From Synergistaceae bacterium (GTDB taxonomy: Bacteria; Synergistota; Synergistia; Synergistales; Synergistaceae): a stretch of DNA of 34,627 nt. The stretch covers positions 1 through 34,627 of the forward strand of contig JAIRNC010000115.1 of the NCBI GenBank assembly GCA_031258255.1. The letters run 5' to 3'. A program made the position numbers and the translations under genes. Positions 25,606 through 33,884 of this stretch are shown in pieces. Below the pieces are notes generated by a model. The model worked only from the letters and a program-made list of their open reading frames with translations. It did no database searches and had not been told where the DNA came from. Position 1 is the stretch's first letter; each line of letters begins with the position of its first letter.

Positions 25606-26979
25606 TCAGCCTTTCCTTATCAGCTTCACGAACAGCGTTAGCGATTCCACCAGCACCACCTCCACCTCGTCGCCCTCCGCGAGCTCGGTCTGCGGATCCA
25701 GGGGCATCACCCTCCAATACTCGCCGTGTACGAAGGCCATGAAGCTCCGATCCGTCCTGCCGCTTATCTTAAGCCTCTCGCCGATCAGGGCGTCCAGGCC
25801 GGAGGCGGGCTTTTTGCGGAGCGCCTTCACGGCCAGCCTGGCGATGAGCAGGAATATAGCGGCGATCACCAGCGTGACGCCTACGACGAAGCCCGTCGAA
25901 AGGTTCAGGAGCTCGGCGCCGGGCGCGTCAAAGAGCATGAGCCCGCCGGCTAGCATGGCAGCGATCCCCACCGCGGCGATTATCCCCATCCCGCCCAGGG
26001 CGATGTCCAGCGTAACGAGCAGTATGCCCCCCACTAGGAGGGCAATGCCGGCGAAGTTGACCGGGAGGACCCGCATACCGTAGGCGGCCATCAGCAGGAG
26101 CACCCCGCCGGTAGCCCCCATCACGAAGCCTCCGGGCGCCCTCGCCTCCAGGATGATCAAAAAAATCCCAGCCAAAAGCGCCAAATAGGCTATGTCAGGG
26201 CGGGAAAATAGCTCCAGCGCCCTCAGGCGGAGCGTCATCTCTATGCGCGTCACGTCCCTGTTCTCGGCCGATATGATCCTCGGGTGCCCCTTGACATCCA
26301 CGACCATCCCGTCGAGCTGCTCGAACAGCTCCTCCTCGCTGGCCGCGATGAAGTCGATAACGCCCTTCTCCAGTGCCTCTCTGGCCGTAAACGACGCGCT
26401 CTCGGTCACCATGGACTCGGCCGCCTCGACGTTTCTCCCCCGCTCCTGCGCGAAGGAGCGCATCTTGGCGGTAAGGTCGTTCGTGATCTTTTTCTTAACG
26501 TCGCCCTCCTCGATGTCGCCTCCCCCCGTCACCGGGTGAGCTGCGCCGATGTTCGTCCCAGGCGCCATGACAGCGACGTGGGCGGACTGCGCGATGAACG
26601 CCCCGGCTGACGCGGCCCTCGCGCCGGATGGCGTCACCCAGACCACCACCGGGAAATCTGCCTCGGCGATCAAGGTCATTATTTCGGACATCGAGTCCAC
26701 CAGCCCGCCAGGCGTGTTCATCCTGAATACCAGCACAGAGTCCTCCCCCCTGCCGATGGCCTTAAACACGCTCTGTACGTGTTCCTCCAGCGGGACGCCG
26801 ACTGTGCCGTTGATGTCGGCGATGAAGAACTTCGTGCCGGAAGCGCCGCTGTGCGCGGACGCGTCATCGGAGACCGCCGCTGCCAGGTCTGCGGACACTG
26901 CGGCACCCGACGGCGCGCAGACGAGCGCCGAAATGGCTAGACAGAGAATGAGCGAGGCGACGCACTGCGGTTTTCTCAT
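25606..26979 (-). CDS. Long NfeD-family membrane serine protease
   Basis: The 457-residue protein has a signal peptide (residues 1-27), a ClpP-class serine protease domain (about 48-230) and a C-terminal part with several membrane helices (about 235-385) plus an OB-like NfeD domain at the end. The nucleophile is Ser124 in GARAASAGAF; the catalytic lysine is probably Lys164 in KKKITND, 40 residues later, close to the spacing in the archaeal homologue. MNTPGGLVDSM is another family motif. Long NfeD proteins cleave the C-terminus of slipins, and the slipin gene follows. Its ATG overlaps the radA stop (ATGA), so the two are translationally coupled. Confidence 0.94.
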   Translation of the reverse strand: MRKPQCVASLILCLAISALVCAPSGAAVSADLAAAVSDDASAHSGASGTKFFIADINGTVGVPLEEHVQSVFKAIGRGEDSVLVFRMNTPGGLVDSMSEIMTLIAEADFPVVVWVTPSGARAASAGAFIAQSAHVAVMAPGTNIGAAHPVTGGGDIEEGDVKKKITNDLTAKMRSFAQERGRNVEAAESMVTESASFTAREALEKGVIDFIAASEEELFEQLDGMVVDVKGHPRIISAENRDVTRIEMTLRLRALELFSRPDIAYLALLAGIFLIILEARAPGGFVMGATGGVLLLMAAYGMRVLPVNFAGIALLVGGILLVTLDIALGGMGIIAAVGIAAMLAGGLMLFDAPGAELLNLSTGFVVGVTLVIAAIFLLIARLAVKALRKKPASGLDALIGERLKISGRTDRSFMAFVHGEYWRVMPLDPQTELAEGDEVEVVLVESLTLFVKLIRKG

Positions 26980-28328
26980 TTTAAAAACCTCTCCAGCATG
27001 GCTGAAACACTCCCAACTTTGATTATCAGGAAGCCGTCCTGTCCCTCTGGCTTCTCCGCCGGATCCCGCGCGCTCATGACCGCCGCCTTGAAACCGAGCC
27101 TCGCCGCCTCCCTCACGCGCAGGCTGGACTTGGCCGTGGGGCGGATCTCACCAGCGAGGCCCACCTCCCCGATGAAGCAGACGCCCTCCGGGAGCGCCAC
27201 GTCCCGAAACGATGAGGCCAGCGCCGCGCAGATCGAGAGGTCAGCGGCCGGGTCCTGAAGCGAGAGCCCCCCCGCGACGTTTACATACACGTCGCTGTTC
27301 CTTGAAAATATACCACATCTCCGCTCCAGGACAGCGAGTAGAAGCTGCAGCCTGTTGACCTCTATCCCCCGCGCCGTCCGTTTCGGATAGGGGAACGGGG
27401 TGGCGCAGGACAGCGCCTGGATCTCGGCGACAAGCGGGCGCGAACCCTCCAGCGAGACCCCGGCGGCGACGCCAGGCGTTCCAACCGATCCAGCCATCCC
27501 CCAGTACATCCTGCTCGGGTCGGTGACAGCGGCCAGGCCCCCTTCGGTCATCTCGAATATCCCCAGCTCGTCCGTGGCGCCGTACCGGTTCTTTTCTGCG
27601 CGGAGGAGCCTGTGCGACGAGTTCCTCTCCCCGGAGAAGAGCAGCACTACGTCCACCATGTGTTCTAAGATCTTAGGCCCGGCGATGGTGCCCTGCTTCG
27701 TTATATGCCCCACCATAACCATCGGTATCGACAGAGATTTAGCGGTCATGGCGGCGCGGGAGGCCACGTTGCGAACCTGGCTCGGAGAGCCTGACCACCC
27801 GCTCTCGCCCTCTATCCTGAACGCTTGCACGGAATCCACCACGAGAAACTCGTAGCCCGCGGCGGCTTCGAGCATCGACAGCAGATCCGCGTCGCAGAGC
27901 AGATCCACGTTTTTCTCGGAAATGCCCAGACGCCTGGCCCGCATCGCGAGCTGCCCGGCCGACTCCTCGCCGGAGATGTAAAGGACGCGATGCCCACCCT
28001 TAGCGATAAAGGCGCAGGCTTGGAGCAGCAGCGTGGACTTCCCCACCCCTGGCTCCCCTCCCAGCAGGACGACGCCGCCCTTGACCCATCCGCCGCCCAG
28101 CACCCTGTCCAGCTCCGCTATGCCAGACGGCACGCGCTCCTCTGGCTTCACGTCGAGGCTCGCTATGGGTTTGGCGGTGACGCGCGACACGGCGGACCCG
28201 CCCGACGGCGCGGGAGCTTCCTCTGACATCGTGCCCCATTCGCCGCAGCCCGGACACCTGCCGACCAGCGTAAGGCTCATGTAGCCGCACTCCGAACAGA
28301 GATATCTCGCGGCGCTTTTTTTTGCCAT
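26976..28328 (-). CDS. radA: DNA repair protein RadA
   Basis: The 450-residue RecA-like protein helps branch migration during recombination. An N-terminal zinc finger uses Cys11, Cys14, Cys25 and Cys28, the Walker A GGEPGVGKST is at 90-99, the RadA-specific KNRYG motif is in EKNRYGAT, and a Lon-like C-terminal domain contains NVAGGLSLQDPAAD and FIGEVGLAGEIRP. Length and domains are normal. The stop overlaps nfeD and the start lies 28 bases after the PHP gene. Confidence 0.97.
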   Translation of the reverse strand: MAKKSAARYLCSECGYMSLTLVGRCPGCGEWGTMSEEAPAPSGGSAVSRVTAKPIASLDVKPEERVPSGIAELDRVLGGGWVKGGVVLLGGEPGVGKSTLLLQACAFIAKGGHRVLYISGEESAGQLAMRARRLGISEKNVDLLCDADLLSMLEAAAGYEFLVVDSVQAFRIEGESGWSGSPSQVRNVASRAAMTAKSLSIPMVMVGHITKQGTIAGPKILEHMVDVVLLFSGERNSSHRLLRAEKNRYGATDELGIFEMTEGGLAAVTDPSRMYWGMAGSVGTPGVAAGVSLEGSRPLVAEIQALSCATPFPYPKRTARGIEVNRLQLLLAVLERRCGIFSRNSDVYVNVAGGLSLQDPAADLSICAALASSFRDVALPEGVCFIGEVGLAGEIRPTAKSSLRVREAARLGFKAAVMSARDPAEKPEGQDGFLIIKVGSVSAMLERFLK

Positions 28329-28356: not shown

Positions 28357-29115
28357 TCAGCCCCAGGGCCATGAGACGCGCCGGCCGCCTTCGCCGCGGA
28401 GCGCGAGCCGTATCTCCGCGAACGTCGGCGCTTCCAGGTACATCTTGGTGCAATGCGCCCTGCCTAGGTCGTCCAGCATGTGGGCGTCGGACGACCTTAT
28501 GAACGCCCTCCGGGCGTAACGCCCCTTCCACGCGTCGGCCTTGGCGGAATCCAGACGCCACGACAGCTCGAACGCGTCTGCCGGGTAATCGTCGGGAAAC
28601 GGCCCCAGCACGGCGGGATAGGAGAACGACGGCCTGTCCACGTGTGCCAGTATAGCAAGCCCGCCCGACGCTCTCGTCTCCCGCACCACCGTGTCCACGT
28701 CGTAACCTACGCCCTGGACGAGCAGCACGCCCTCCATGCGGAGGATGCCGTTGTCCTTGTCTATCACCGCCTGATCGCCAAAAATGTCCGGATCGTTGGC
28801 AGTGGGGGGCATTTTAGCCCAGCGTCTGCGGAGCCACTCCTGAAATGCCCGCGCGAGAGCGTAATCCGGGAAAACAGCCAGGACGTGGATATCCTCGGCG
28901 GTCTGCACCTCTATCCCGGGCAGGACGACCGGACAGCCCATGGCGCGCTCAGAAATGGCCGGGAAGTTGTCCGAGCTGTTATGGTCGGATACCGCGATGA
29001 TGTCTATCCCAGCCTTCCTCGCCGCCTCCACGATCTCAGGCGCGCCCATCTCCAGCTCACCGCAGGGGGAGAGCGCCGTATGCACGTGGAGGTCCACCCA
29101 ATAAGGATTCAGCAC
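28357..29115 (-). CDS. PHP-domain phosphoesterase
   Basis: The start is placed at GTG 29115, which overlaps the TAG of the preceding gene (TAGTG); the open frame continues to 29205 and ATG 29151 is an alternative without a ribosome site. The 252-residue PHP domain has the metal-binding motifs DLHVHTALSPCG, VSDHNSSDN, AHVDRPSF and SSDAH. Such domains hydrolyse phosphoesters; a nucleotide or polynucleotide substrate is unknown. PHP genes accompany DRTGG and hydrogenase-like genes in related bacteria, suggesting a signalling role. Confidence 0.9.
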   Translation of the reverse strand: MLNPYWVDLHVHTALSPCGELEMGAPEIVEAARKAGIDIIAVSDHNSSDNFPAISERAMGCPVVLPGIEVQTAEDIHVLAVFPDYALARAFQEWLRRRWAKMPPTANDPDIFGDQAVIDKDNGILRMEGVLLVQGVGYDVDTVVRETRASGGLAILAHVDRPSFSYPAVLGPFPDDYPADAFELSWRLDSAKADAWKGRYARRAFIRSSDAHMLDDLGRAHCTKMYLEAPTFAEIRLALRGEGGRRVSWPWG

Positions 29116-29459
29116 TAGCCTGAAATCCCCAGCCGCCCCAGCTTCACGCATGTATCGAAGACAGAGGCCGCCGCGCTCACGAGCGCTATGCCCTCCGCGC
29201 GGCACCGCTCGAAGAGGTCCGCCGCCGGCTCGCGACCGGAGGCAATTATTATTATCGGGATATCCTTGAGGACGGCCACAGCAGCGACGTTCAGGTGCGT
29301 CTGGACGGTAATCCAGGCCGCGCCATCCGCATCGCTCCCCATCACGAAGCTCAAGAGGTCGCCCACTGCCGCGCGCTCTACCTCGCGGTCCATATCCCCC
29401 GGGACGTGTACCTTTGCGTCAATCTCCGCGCAGAGCTCGCTTATCCGTACAGAAGCCAA
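29115..29459 (-). CDS. DRTGG-domain protein
   Basis: The 114-residue protein is almost entirely a DRTGG domain, a fold of unknown function also found in Pta and some CBS proteins. The segment VLKDIPIIIIASGREPAADLFERC and the later GIALVSAAASVFDTCVKLGRLG match. It starts at TTG 29459 with GGGGGTGA upstream, 4 bases after the hydrogenase-like gene, and its stop overlaps the PHP start. A second DRTGG gene lies at 31260-31625. Confidence 0.85.
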   Translation of the reverse strand: MASVRISELCAEIDAKVHVPGDMDREVERAAVGDLLSFVMGSDADGAAWITVQTHLNVAAVAVLKDIPIIIIASGREPAADLFERCRAEGIALVSAAASVFDTCVKLGRLGISG

Positions 29460-29463
29460 ATCG

Positions 29464-30813
29464 TCACCCCCTTTGAGCGTTCACCTTTATGCTCTTCCCC
29501 GGCTGTATGCGCTTGAGCGCGTTCGGCTGCAGGTCGGCCAGGGAAATTATCTGGTTCGCCAAGGACGAGATGTCCTCCCTCAGCTTGAATATGCAGTCGG
29601 TTATCTCCCCCTGCTCGCGGGCCACGTCCTCGGCCATCGCCTTGCACGACGGCCTGCCGCATGCGCCGCAGTCTATGTGGGGGAGCTCTGCGAAGATGGC
29701 CTTCATCTGCTTCAGACGGTTCATGGCCTCCGGCAGGTCGCTCGAAAGCGGGAGCCTCTGACGCGACGGGATCGGCTCGCTAAGTCTCCACAGCTTCTCG
29801 TTTTCGAACATGGACTTGAGATGATCCTGCCTATCAGGCGAAAGCTGCCAGTTCGTCTCGATGTCCCTGTGCTTCATGTGGGCCAGGAAGCGCGATTCCG
29901 GCGCGGCGACACCCCCGAAGCACCCTATGTCGCAAGTCCTGCACTCCACAAAGTCCACGCCGCGCAGACGCCCCAGCTCGAGCTGTTCGAGCAGATCCAT
30001 GGTGTTGCGTAGGCCGGAAACGGCTATGACCCTCAAGTCCTTGCTCGCGAATCTCGTGATATGCCTGGACTCCCCTCCCCTGCTGGCCCACTCGGCGAAG
30101 CGCTTTGTGTCGGACTTGCCGCGCGGCGTGTCCGACGAGACCTTGACGCCGGAGGCCATGAGCGCGTGGACGACCTTTCGCATTGAGACTATGTGCTGTA
30201 TCGGGGAGGGCTGGCGTCCTACGGGATCGCGCACCATCGTTATCTTCGCGGGGCATGGGACGATGAGCGTGAGCGGGGCGAAGGACTTGGTTCTCTTGCG
30301 CCACATCTCGGCCGCTATCTCCAGAGGGTTCTCCACGACTATGAGGCGGCTCAGTAGTTCCGGGTATTCCAGCTGTATCAGCCTCACTACCGCGGGGCAG
30401 TAAGTGGATATGACCGGGAGCTGATCCTTAGACATGCGCTCTATCGTCCTGGCGGCCGCGTAAGCGCTCAGGTCGAACGCGTCCTCTATGTCCTCCACCA
30501 GGAGGTCGATCCCGTTCTGGGACAGCGCTTCCTTCGCCAGCTCAGGATACCAGTACGACCCGAACTGCGCGAAGAACGTGGGGTCGGGGATGGCCGCCAC
30601 GTTGCCGTGGGCGCGGATGAGATCCCAGTCGTCGTCGTCGATGCCCAGGGCTTTCCTGTCACACGCCCTCAGGCACTCGCCGCAATCGACGCACAGATCC
30701 TTTATGATCGTAATCGAACCCGCTATGACGCGGATAGCTTCCGTCGGACATGATTTTATGCAATTGACGCAGCCGTGACAGGCCGAATAAGAAATTCTTA
30801 TGCTGTGCGCCAT
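29464..30813 (-). CDS. Iron-only hydrogenase-like regulatory protein with two ferredoxin-type clusters
   Basis: The 449-residue protein begins with two [4Fe-4S] ferredoxin motifs (Cys12/15/18/22 and Cys41/44/47/51). A [FeFe] hydrogenase large-subunit domain follows. Its motifs align with the H-cluster loops: STYCPAV at 136-142 (usually TSCCP), VPCPAK at 185-190, and CRTCDIGC at 291-298. Cofactor cysteines are kept (Cys139, Cys187, Cys294, Cys298), as is Lys190, but the proton-transfer cysteine is Tyr138. A C-terminal four-cysteine module (DCGACGRPSC...C) ends the conserved part. No signal peptide is present. With the ATPase and DRTGG neighbours this resembles sensory-type hydrogenases rather than a bulk H2 enzyme. 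Confidence 0.85.
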   Translation of the reverse strand: MAHSIRISYSACHGCVNCIKSCPTEAIRVIAGSITIIKDLCVDCGECLRACDRKALGIDDDDWDLIRAHGNVAAIPDPTFFAQFGSYWYPELAKEALSQNGIDLLVEDIEDAFDLSAYAAARTIERMSKDQLPVISTYCPAVVRLIQLEYPELLSRLIVVENPLEIAAEMWRKRTKSFAPLTLIVPCPAKITMVRDPVGRQPSPIQHIVSMRKVVHALMASGVKVSSDTPRGKSDTKRFAEWASRGGESRHITRFASKDLRVIAVSGLRNTMDLLEQLELGRLRGVDFVECRTCDIGCFGGVAAPESRFLAHMKHRDIETNWQLSPDRQDHLKSMFENEKLWRLSEPIPSRQRLPLSSDLPEAMNRLKQMKAIFAELPHIDCGACGRPSCKAMAEDVAREQGEITDCIFKLREDISSLANQIISLADLQPNALKRIQPGKSIKVNAQRG

Positions 30814-30829
30814 GCCAGACTCAACTCCT

Positions 30830-31255
30830 TTACGGGAGGTTTATCACCGTCCTGAGAGTAGTTCCAGTGCCGACCTCCGTGAAAATCTCGAATACGTCGG
30901 CGTTACGCTTTATGTTGGGGAGGCCCATGCCCGCCCCGAAACCCATCTCGCGGGCCCGGTCCCCGGCCGTGGTAAAGCCCTCCTGCACCGCCTTTTCCAC
31001 GTCCGGGATCCCCGGGCCCTCGTCGATCGTCATCAGCTCTACCGACTCCTCGTCGATGTTCGCAACGATCTTCCCGCCGCCTCCGTGGATGACCAGGTTC
31101 ATCTCCGCCTCATAGGTTATGATGGCGGCCCTCCGCGAAATAGCTGTCGGGAGCCCCAGCATCTTGAGCGTCTCCTTCACGCTGTTAGAAGCGGCGCCGG
31201 CAGCCTGATAGTCGTCAGCGGCGACCTCGTACTCTAAATGGATGGGATCCGCCAC
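30830..31255 (-). CDS. RsbW-like ATP-binding (HATPase) regulator
   Basis: The 141-residue protein is a GHKL ATPase of the anti-sigma/serine kinase type. The N-box EAEMNLVIH and G1 box DEGPGIPD are clear, and the G2 box reads GFGAGMGLPNIK. There is no histidine-kinase dimerisation domain. RsbW-like proteins phosphorylate or bind a partner protein; no STAS or sigma partner is visible here. It starts at GTG 31255, 4 bases after the preceding DRTGG gene. Confidence 0.9.
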   Translation of the reverse strand: MADPIHLEYEVAADDYQAAGAASNSVKETLKMLGLPTAISRRAAIITYEAEMNLVIHGGGGKIVANIDEESVELMTIDEGPGIPDVEKAVQEGFTTAGDRAREMGFGAGMGLPNIKRNADVFEIFTEVGTGTTLRTVINLP

Positions 31256-31259
31256 TTGC

Positions 31260-31625
31260 CTATACCGGGGCGGAGTTCGCTTGAGTCGGCTTTACCCCCA
31301 TGGCATAAAGCAGCCCGCACGTGTGAAACATGTTGTGGCTCGACAGCACGAGCGGTATGCCGGCGCCCCTTGCCAGGGCGATGGTATCCTCCAGCGGGCA
31401 TTTTCCGCGCACGAACAGCACCGCCGGTATGTCCAGCATCTGGGCGGTCCTCACTATCTGAATGTTCGTGAGACCCGTGATCAGAAAAGCCCCGGGCGCG
31501 CAGAACGCGAGGACGTCGCTCATGAGGTCGCTGGCGAACGCGCCGTCTATTTCGACCGAAGCCAGACGTTCCTCACAGCAGAGCGTCTTCGTCTCCAGGA
31601 CACTCGCAATGTCGCCTAAGGTCAA
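31260..31625 (-). CDS. DRTGG-domain protein (second copy)
   Basis: The 121-residue protein has the DRTGG fold pattern, including GAFLITGLTNIQIVRTAQML and a later IPLVLSSHNMFHTCGLLYAMG. It starts at TTG 31625 behind GGGAGGCGAGG. It is only distantly similar to the DRTGG protein at 29115-29459. Position at the head of the hydrogenase-like cluster is like that in related anaerobes. Confidence 0.82.
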   Translation of the reverse strand: MTLGDIASVLETKTLCCEERLASVEIDGAFASDLMSDVLAFCAPGAFLITGLTNIQIVRTAQMLDIPAVLFVRGKCPLEDTIALARGAGIPLVLSSHNMFHTCGLLYAMGVKPTQANSAPV

Positions 31626-31668: not shown

Positions 31669-32913
31669 TCATTCGATAACCTCCACGGAATAGACATCCA
31701 CGCTGGAGACAGGCTCAAAAGCCCTCCCCCCAACCTTCAAAACGCAGAATTTGCGCGACTTGGGCCTGTTTGTCCTTGGATCGATGGAGAGCATCTCGTC
31801 CATGAGCGGTATGCCGTCCGCCACAGAGAGAGCCTCCGCCACGGATGGCGCGCTTATAACCCGGGCGTTCACGAACCCGTCGATGGCCCATTTGCCCAGT
31901 GCATACGCCTTCGCAGCAGTGACTGGGTCGGCAAGCGCGCGGCCAAAAAGATCCCTCGCCTTTACGTCCATGACGTGCTTCCCCTCGTCGTTGTGATTCA
32001 ATATGTCGTCCTTGTCGACCAGGACGAGACCGTCAGCGTCAAGGAGTATGCTGTTTTTCACCCCGGAGAAGCAGACCGTCACGTCATTACGGCCGAGCGT
32101 GACCGTCCTCCACACGGACAGGGTGGAAAGGGAGTCCAGCCAGCTCGTTATCACGCCGGCGCCGGACGACACCGCCTCCCGCACCTGAGCGTCAAACCTG
32201 TTCTGTACCATCGCCGGCACAAAGTAGACGTGCGTCTGCACACCGTCCCTCCGCAGCATGTCGGCGTTTTTGCCTGCCCCCCGCGCGAGCTTTTCAGACA
32301 GCCCGTCCGTCATGATCACGACGGACCTGCCTGAAACGCCCTGCTTTGCGAAAGCGGCCAGTGCGTTGGCCCGAGCGAAGTAAGTGTAGTCGAGCGCGAA
32401 AAGGTAAGGGAACGGCGAGTCGTTAGCGGGGTTCTTTATAGCAATGTTCTCACCGCCGGCAAATATGACGGAAGGCCCCCGCTCCGCGCACAGGCGTTTC
32501 AGCTCGAGGTCCATCAGGTCGCCGCCGAAGCTCAGGATAGCGCAGGATTTCATGCCACGCCACGTCTCCACGCGCCTGGCGAGCTCGGCAGGGTCTGCTA
32601 CGGACGAGAACATGAACGTCACCTCGAAGCCATTTATGGCCTCCCGGGAGAGCGAGATCTCGCGTTCGGCGGCGCGGAGGCCGTATTTTATCGACTCCCC
32701 GGAAGGGCTGCCCCAGCCTTCTGGCGGCTGGATGACTATGACGGGCCAGGACCACCCCTCCTTGACCCCTGAAAGGTCAGTCTCCCCCCCGCCGATAGGC
32801 GCGGCATGGGCGGCGCGGATGAAAAAGGCAAAAAAAACGAGCAGGCCGCAAATGCACGCCCTCACAGCGGCATACGCGGACGAATCCGTCTGACTCAGCC
32901 TGATATCCCCCAT
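31669..32913 (-). CDS. Periplasmic binding protein, type 1 fold (ABC-type substrate-binding)
   Basis: The 414-residue protein has a signal peptide (about residues 18-38, ending AAHAA) and two Rossmann-like lobes of the branched-chain amino-acid/receptor-type binding proteins: YGLRAAEREIS, then SFGGDLMDLELKRLC, FALDYTYFARANALAAFAKQ and SGRSVVIMTD. Its ligand is unknown and no transporter genes are near. GGGGGGA lies 7 bases before the ATG. It is 43 bases upstream of the DRTGG gene, so it probably heads the same operon. Confidence 0.8.
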   Translation of the reverse strand: MGDIRLSQTDSSAYAAVRACICGLLVFFAFFIRAAHAAPIGGGETDLSGVKEGWSWPVIVIQPPEGWGSPSGESIKYGLRAAEREISLSREAINGFEVTFMFSSVADPAELARRVETWRGMKSCAILSFGGDLMDLELKRLCAERGPSVIFAGGENIAIKNPANDSPFPYLFALDYTYFARANALAAFAKQGVSGRSVVIMTDGLSEKLARGAGKNADMLRRDGVQTHVYFVPAMVQNRFDAQVREAVSSGAGVITSWLDSLSTLSVWRTVTLGRNDVTVCFSGVKNSILLDADGLVLVDKDDILNHNDEGKHVMDVKARDLFGRALADPVTAAKAYALGKWAIDGFVNARVISAPSVAEALSVADGIPLMDEMLSIDPRTNRPKSRKFCVLKVGGRAFEPVSSVDVYSVEVIE

Positions 32914-33333: not shown

Positions 33334-33618
33334 ATGCCTAAAACGGCAACGTTATCCATACGGGTAGACCCGAAAATAAAAAGCGAGGCGGAAACTCTTT
33401 ATTCCATGTACGGCTTGAGCCTCGGCGATGCCGTCAACGTCTTTCTGCACCAGTCTCTCAACGTAGGGGGCCTGCCCTTCGACATGAGGGCTTCGCGCCC
33501 TAACGCCGTGACGGAAGCGGCCATGCTGGAGGGTGATGAAATAATCAGGCGCGTGAAGTCATCGGAGAAGGGGCGCTTTGACAGCGCGGAGAGTATGCTT
33601 GCCGATTTGAAAAACTGA
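33334..33618 (+). CDS. RelB/DinJ-family antitoxin
   Basis: The 94-residue protein has a ribbon-helix-helix N-terminus: TATLSIRVDPKIKSEAETLY, then GLSLGDAVNVFLHQSL, and GGLPFDM near residue 50, the DinJ pattern. The C-terminal tail would wrap the toxin. It should repress its own promoter and neutralise the toxin encoded next. GAGAGGTGAT precedes the ATG. Its stop overlaps the toxin start (TGATG). Confidence 0.93.
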   Translation: MPKTATLSIRVDPKIKSEAETLYSMYGLSLGDAVNVFLHQSLNVGGLPFDMRASRPNAVTEAAMLEGDEIIRRVKSSEKGRFDSAESMLADLKN

Positions 33619-33884
33619 TGCTGACTCCCGATTACACAGGCCAGTTCAAAAAGGATTATAAGTTGGCGATGAAGCGGGGGTTCGACATCTGTCTCCTTGA
33701 TGGCGTCATTGTCGAATTGGTGAACGAACACCCCCTTGACGAGAAACACCGAGACCATCCCTTGGCTGGGAACTGGAACGGCCGGAGAGAATGTCATATT
33801 AAGGGAGATTGGCTGCTGATTTATCAAGTTGATGAAGGGGTCATCGTATTCGAGCGCACCGGGACGCACTCAGACTTATTCTGA
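33618..33884 (+). CDS. YafQ-family mRNA interferase toxin
   Basis: The 88-residue RelE-superfamily toxin cleaves mRNA on the ribosome. The five residues that matter in E. coli YafQ are all present with the same spacing: His47 in DHPLAG, His60 in ECHI, Asp64 in GDW, His84 and Phe88 in RTGTHSDLF. The ATG overlaps the antitoxin stop, the typical coupled arrangement. It appears intact, so the pair is probably functional. Confidence 0.94.
   Translation: MLTPDYTGQFKKDYKLAMKRGFDICLLDGVIVELVNEHPLDEKHRDHPLAGNWNGRRECHIKGDWLLIYQVDEGVIVFERTGTHSDLF

Follow-up and report, generated by a model that had tools for sequence, protein, structure and literature searches.

Among the described relatives of the [FeFe] hydrogenases, the proteins of HydDB group C1 are listed as "histidine kinase-linked (putative)" and as ones that "may sense H2" (PMC5037454), and those of the Hydrogenedentota are reported to contain a HATPase_C domain and no findable H-cluster motifs, with H2 sensing left unclear (PMC11406978). 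Here we analyze a 34,627-nucleotide contig of a Synergistaceae bacterium (the window), which carries a cassette of five genes encoding, in order, a DRTGG-domain protein (DRTGG1), an ATPase related to SpoIIAB and RsbW, a hydrogenase-like iron-sulfur protein that we term FEH, a second DRTGG-domain protein (DRTGG2), and a PHP-family phosphoesterase. Judged by the published descriptions rather than by the output of a classifier, FEH is probably a member of group C1. We propose, with a probability of about 0.55, that the cassette is a hydrogenase-derived redox sensor in which FEH, an iron-sulfur protein free of the H-cluster, acts on an ATPase switch.

As in the described C1 proteins, FEH is tied to a histidine-kinase-type ATPase, and the likeness extends to the HATPase fusions of the Hydrogenedentota members, to H-cluster motifs that are hard to detect with the published signatures, and to frequent proximity to group A3 (BfuABC) hydrogenases. 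Whereas HydDB points to H2, FEH occurs without H-cluster maturases and beside [NiFe] or formate dehydrogenase modules, and the DRTGG/PHP cassette is described in neither PMC5037454 nor PMC11406978. The HydS proteins of T. maritima (group C3) and T. mathranii (group D), for which a regulatory role has been proposed, have in common with FEH the H-domain fold, the retained cluster cysteines, and changes at the C299, M353, and M497 positions. In contrast to HydS, FEH is not tied to maturases, lies in a clade apart from the C3-like proteins analyzed here, and has neither the C-terminal PAS domain nor the phosphatase partner of group C3, a Pfam scan having found no PAS domain in the window FEH. A PAS-containing, HydS-like (C3-like) gene does lie beside a SpoIIE phosphatase gene at L135:4400-7323, in a genome (G043) without detected HydE, HydF, or HydG. 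The window's own genome (G000) also encodes, at L130:6387-8117 on contig C27, a C2-like protein of 576 residues in which a hydrogenase-like region (L1, ITQPCP; L3, CQEGC) is fused to a methyl-accepting chemotaxis protein signaling domain.

Eukaryotic Nar1/CIAO3 is likewise hydrogenase-like with [4Fe-4S] clusters, and Nar1 contains ordinary clusters only and no 2Fe cofactor (PMC12621388); FEH differs in its two extra cluster sites, in its bacterial operon with ATPase, DRTGG, and PHP genes, and in having no cytosolic iron-sulfur assembly (CIA) partners. The anti-sigma kinases SpoIIAB and RsbW are the closest solved relatives of the ATPase, which keeps their N, G1, and G2 boxes and the N-box Glu, but its partner is an iron-sulfur protein and the cassette has no gene for a sigma factor, STAS antagonist, or PP2C phosphatase. 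Finally, the gene types of the bifurcating NiFe-HydABCSL (NiFe-Bfu) operon of A. mobile, including hisK and hydD, are found directly downstream of the cassette in relatives of Acetomicrobium and Thermovirga, although the cassette, which sits upstream, goes unmentioned in the portion of PMC9304861 examined. A literature search on DRTGG with PHP and hydrogenase returned no description of the five-gene cassette, and what is new here is the test of maturase independence, the DRTGG/PHP cassette, the ATPase-FEH fusion, and the adjacency to redox modules other than [FeFe].

A conserved FEH-ATPase unit

FEH matches the Pfam families Fe_hyd_lg_C (1.4e-22) and FeS (7.9e-12) and contains two Fer4 domains, and its predicted structure (mean predicted local distance difference test score, pLDDT, 91.5) has the [FeFe]-hydrogenase fold with a template modeling (TM) score of 0.62. 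Sixteen of its cysteines, in the two ferredoxin sites, the H-domain (four), and the PF04060 site, are invariant across 36 sequences, a number sufficient for four [4Fe-4S] clusters. In the phylogenetic tree FEH forms a clade separate from HydA (support 100/98). The non-ligand residues that line the group A pocket, C299, M353, and M497 in CpI, are replaced in FEH. Specifically, a Tyr replaces C299 in the window protein and nearly all Synergistota, with Ser, Ala, Cys, or Asn elsewhere; the window FEH has Val and Arg at the M353 and M497 positions, and in nearly all rows of the motif table the former is not Met and the latter is Arg, Gln, or another residue. For the L2 Lys, almost every row shows Lys or Arg.

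The adjacent ATPase matches TIGR01925 (spIIAB, 4.6e-11), its best matches in the Protein Data Bank (PDB) are the anti-sigma F factor SpoIIAB (5e-12), and its GHKL ATP-binding motifs (E49/N53, D78-G80-G82, and G105-GAGMGL) are invariant in the alignment, with the catalytic-type Glu intact. In four Bacillota loci (L103, L105, L106, and L116) the ATPase and FEH are encoded by one open reading frame (ORF), with hidden Markov model scores of ~157 and ~350 bits for the two parts. A classic anti-sigma partner switch was considered and set aside as the leading idea because STAS, sigma, and phosphatase genes are not in the cassette; the absence of a sigma factor or STAS partner applies to the cassette genes, with only some of the flanking genes identified and no search made of the remaining genome.

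All five genes occur in order at 50 of 79 loci (the window and 78 others) from Synergistota, Bacillota, and Caldisericota, so the neighborhood is kept well outside this strain, which the sequence-only reading had singled out for checking. Most of the remaining loci are truncated by contig ends, as several are, or are partial variants. Within the Synergistota the cassette was found in 20 loci of a first set and 20 of a second, three of these being either without DRTGG2-PHP or truncated at the edge of a contig. Because this gene order is found again in other families and phyla, where the proteins are 30-60% identical, the cassette does not reflect chance. The partial variants are of several kinds: Synergistaceae from termite and cockroach guts (L055-L061, L148, and L153) keep DRTGG1-ATPase-FEH and have lost DRTGG2 and PHP, Fermentithermobacillaceae and one related Bacillota metagenome-assembled genome (MAG) have the fused ATPase-FEH plus DRTGG2, and a Spirochaetaceae MAG has ATPase-FEH. 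Since PHP never occurs without DRTGG2 in the locus table, apart from loci cut by contig ends, the cassette looks like two units, [DRTGG1-ATPase-FEH] and [DRTGG2-PHP]. The earlier idea of a functional unit is thus borne out for the iron-sulfur protein and its ATPase, and for a link to operons of the hydrogenase type in some branches of the tree.

Maturase-independent occurrence of FEH

Assembly of the H-cluster requires HydE, HydF, and HydG. We scored 61 Synergistota genomes for PF02906, HydF, HydG, and HydE. In twelve genomes that are at least 90% complete and come from six families (G037, G042-G046, G050, G051, G053, G054, G059, and G060), among them relatives of Acetomicrobium and Thermovirga, FEH is present, HydE, HydF, and HydG all fall under the cut-off, and there is no catalytic HydA; the presence of FEH was verified in all twelve by blastp or by an FEH profile at the loci. 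Across the 48 high-quality genomes FEH is independent of HydF (25/12/8/3, odds ratio 0.78, p = 1), and in the same genomes catalytic HydA is tightly linked to HydF (32/2/1/13, odds ratio 208, p = 7e-9), both by Fisher tests that ignore shared ancestry and that use a presence/absence table compiled by hand from the outputs. Hence, FEH does not follow the maturases. In G004, G008, G009, G011, G023, G027, G048, and G056, HydF and HydE were found and HydG was under the cut-off.

These data bear on the alternative closest to the HydDB annotation of C1, namely that FEH is a genuine H2 sensor whose full H-cluster reports H2 to the ATPase and thereby regulates hydrogenases. The sequence-only reading had the iron-sulfur protein sensing either H2 or the redox state, and it is the second half that fares better. 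The hydrogenase fold and the four conserved H-cluster cysteines would suit an H2 sensor, as would the FeFe-HydABC genes that adjoin the cassette in L103, L111, L114, and G013, and T. maritima HydS, with similar changes in its pocket, still incorporates the 2Fe cofactor (PMC10055695). In addition, the window's own genome has HydE, HydF, and HydG, so that an H-cluster and H2 sensing are possible for the window FEH. The twelve near-complete genomes without detectable maturases or HydA, the missing association with HydF, the changed residues of the 2Fe site, the lack of a PAS domain, and the unfindable motifs of the Hydrogenedentota proteins (PMC11406978) all argue the other way. For the FEH family as a whole the data do not support H2 sensing, and we consider this alternative unlikely. 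Sensing of redox rather than of H2 is most likely because many genomes keep the cassette without the machinery for building an H-cluster.

Several observations weigh against a redox sensor free of the H-cluster. FEH keeps all four H-cluster cysteines, including the equivalent of the one that bridges to the 2Fe subsite, and the window's genome contains HydABC on other contigs together with the three maturases. Two near-complete genomes, G006 and G039, carry a catalytic HydA-type gene of intact length and yet no detected HydE, HydF, or HydG, which shows that detection of the maturases is imperfect; at this miss rate (2/34, about 6%), the probability of 12 misses in 37 is about 8e-7 in a calculation that ignores shared ancestry. 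Moreover, in many species, the window's included, there is no redox enzyme beside the cassette.

Proposed redox switch and its alternatives

In the mechanism that we put forward, FEH would be built on an [FeFe]-hydrogenase scaffold, hold four [4Fe-4S] clusters with no need for the catalytic 2Fe subsite, and exchange electrons with the ferredoxin/NAD(H) pool. We hypothesize that the redox state of FEH alters either the ATP-bound state or the kinase activity of its contact partner, the SpoIIAB/RsbW-like ATPase, with the signal passing from FEH to the ATPase. The two DRTGG proteins may be small interaction or effector subunits, and PHP may work on the output side, as a metal phosphoesterase clearing a phosphorylated ligand or product. 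The purpose would be to tune NADH-linked redox enzymes of the electron-bifurcating type and the disposal of electrons.

The DRTGG fold is seen in DRTGG1 by structure comparison (pLDDT 94.6; best PDB match the DRTGG protein 2ioj, TM 0.72), with further matches to the DRTGG domain of a CBS-pyrophosphatase (3l2b/3l31), and in DRTGG2 by profile-profile comparison with DRTGG1 (hhalign, 99.7%), with which it has a D-L-x-S / T / N pattern in common. The Pfam match of DRTGG1 is under the curated cut-off and that of DRTGG2 is marginal (0.05). A nucleotide signal that the DRTGG and PHP proteins might bind or break was put forward in the sequence-only reading as a conjecture; in CBS pyrophosphatases the nucleotides bind to the CBS domains and the DRTGG domain sits in the dimer interface (PMC10742508). 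PHP has the invariant pattern HxH, DH, E, H, H, DxH, with eight invariant metal-ligand positions (H40, H42, H75, E99, H107, H188, D240, and H242 in the numbering of a 282-residue ORF), and lacks the Asp that follows HxH in some PHP enzymes; its relatives in the PDB are EndoQ, 3e0f, 7ug9, and 2yb1.

The proposed target is suggested by the neighborhood. The cassette often lies upstream of NADH-linked NuoE/NuoF operons, which have [NiFe], formate dehydrogenase, or [FeFe] as their third module. In Acetomicrobium, Thermovirga, and relatives it is followed by genes for NuoE, HisK, HydD, NuoF, a NuoG/HydA-like protein, and a [NiFe] small subunit; in L094, L096, and L098 the hydrogenase is replaced by genes for formate dehydrogenase; and the module is a FeFe HydA in L103, L105, L111, L114, and G013. 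Proximity to complexes rich in Fe-S clusters and of three catalytic types might also be expected of an assembly or trafficking factor like Nar1/CIAO3, in which case FEH and the ATPase would load or repair the clusters of NuoE/NuoF-type complexes; Nar1 has no 2Fe cofactor, and FEH for its part occurs without the maturases. However, the ATPase is of the SpoIIAB/GHKL type rather than a P-loop scaffold ATPase, no role in assembly is evident for PHP or DRTGG, and Synergistota genomes without FEH still carry NuoF homologues, so we regard such a role as less probable still than H2 sensing. The least probable alternative is that FEH is the electron-carrying subunit of a ferredoxin-linked complex, regulated by the other cassette genes: its four clusters resemble a wire, and in distant relatives from Clostridia MAGs (L119 and L124-L126) an FEH-like gene directly precedes RnfD/G/E/A-like genes (identified by Pfam on L119) in a set that ends in an NqrF-like flavoprotein (by Pfam on L119 and L124), but the FEH of the cassette always adjoins the ATPase or is fused with it and in most cases stands by itself, and the Nqr-linked branch is nested inside the Bacillota FEHs in the tree. 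These sets have no adjoining RnfB, RnfC, or NqrA (L119:9980-15271 and L124:9956-15260) and, from their gene content, those of L119 and L124-L126 possibly encode an ion pump with a hydrogenase-like subunit for electron input.

Locus layout and implications

The coordinates are given in the table below. Five closely packed minus-strand genes in the domain order above had been described previously, and the ORFs, their spacing, and the Pfam matches agree with this. The gaps are 4 bases (DRTGG1/ATPase), 16 bases (ATPase/FEH), and 4 bases (FEH/DRTGG2). PHP is better started at 29115, at a GTG within TAGTG that overlaps the DRTGG2 stop by one base and indicates that the two genes are coupled.

Features of the cassette and its neighbors in the window
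Feature	Position	Strand	Description
DRTGG1	31260..31625	-	stand-alone DRTGG-domain protein, 121 aa, TTG start; Pfam DRTGG 6.6e-5
ATPase	30830..31255	-	GHKL, SpoIIAB/RsbW-like, 141 aa; HATPase_c 2.9e-7
FEH	29464..30813	-	hydrogenase-like Fe-S protein, 449 aa: two Fer4, H-domain, FeS (PF04060)
FEH N-terminal ferredoxin-like region	30661..30780	-	C12-C22 and C41-C51, predicted sites for two [4Fe-4S]; invariant Cys
FEH H-domain cysteines	29920..30399	-	C139 (L1, STYCP), C187 (L2, VPCPAK), C294/C298 (L3, CRTCDIGC); motif table
FEH C-terminal FeS domain (PF04060)	29587..29685	-	C382, C385, C390, C407
DRTGG2	29115..29459	-	divergent second DRTGG-domain protein, 114 aa; hhalign to DRTGG1
PHP-family phosphoesterase	28357..29115	-	252 aa; Pfam PHP 8.5e-6; start in ORF list, 29205
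Peripla_BP_6-type periplasmic binding protein	31669..32913	-	upstream neighbor; Pfam 2.2e-7, marginally under cut-off
radA/sms	26976..28328	-	downstream neighbor outside the cassette; begins 28 bases past PHP

A single transcript for the cassette is plausible, since scanning the region for promoters and terminators yielded weak consensus matches only, with no promoter-like site between the binding-protein gene and DRTGG1 and one weak site (9 of 12) near the FEH start. Cassettes of the window's family are mostly solitary, their neighbor being a Peripla_BP_6 gene on the upstream side or radA on the downstream side; in many Synergistaceae the former is directly upstream on the same strand and the latter is often downstream, an arrangement overlooked in the sequence-only reading. 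The Peripla_BP_6 protein was dropped as a candidate sensor input, as it appears to be exported and is missing from cassettes outside the Synergistaceae. The window also contains a RelB/YafQ-type toxin-antitoxin pair on the plus strand (33334-33884).

More tentatively than for the cassette itself, we suggest that the C1-like "sensory hydrogenases" of HydDB may be widespread redox sensors that are not hydrogenases, being free of the H-cluster, with four [4Fe-4S] clusters, direct control of a SpoIIAB-like ATP switch, and DRTGG/PHP output, and serving NAD(H)-linked bifurcating enzymes of any catalytic metal. Such a redox-to-phosphate signaling system was not described in the literature searched. 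Genome surveys count FEH-like proteins as H2 sensors and, if these proteins are free of the H-cluster, the predictions of H2 sensing for many anaerobes would be wrong. If our proposal is true, the cassette would be a redox signaling module for fermentative and bifurcating metabolism.

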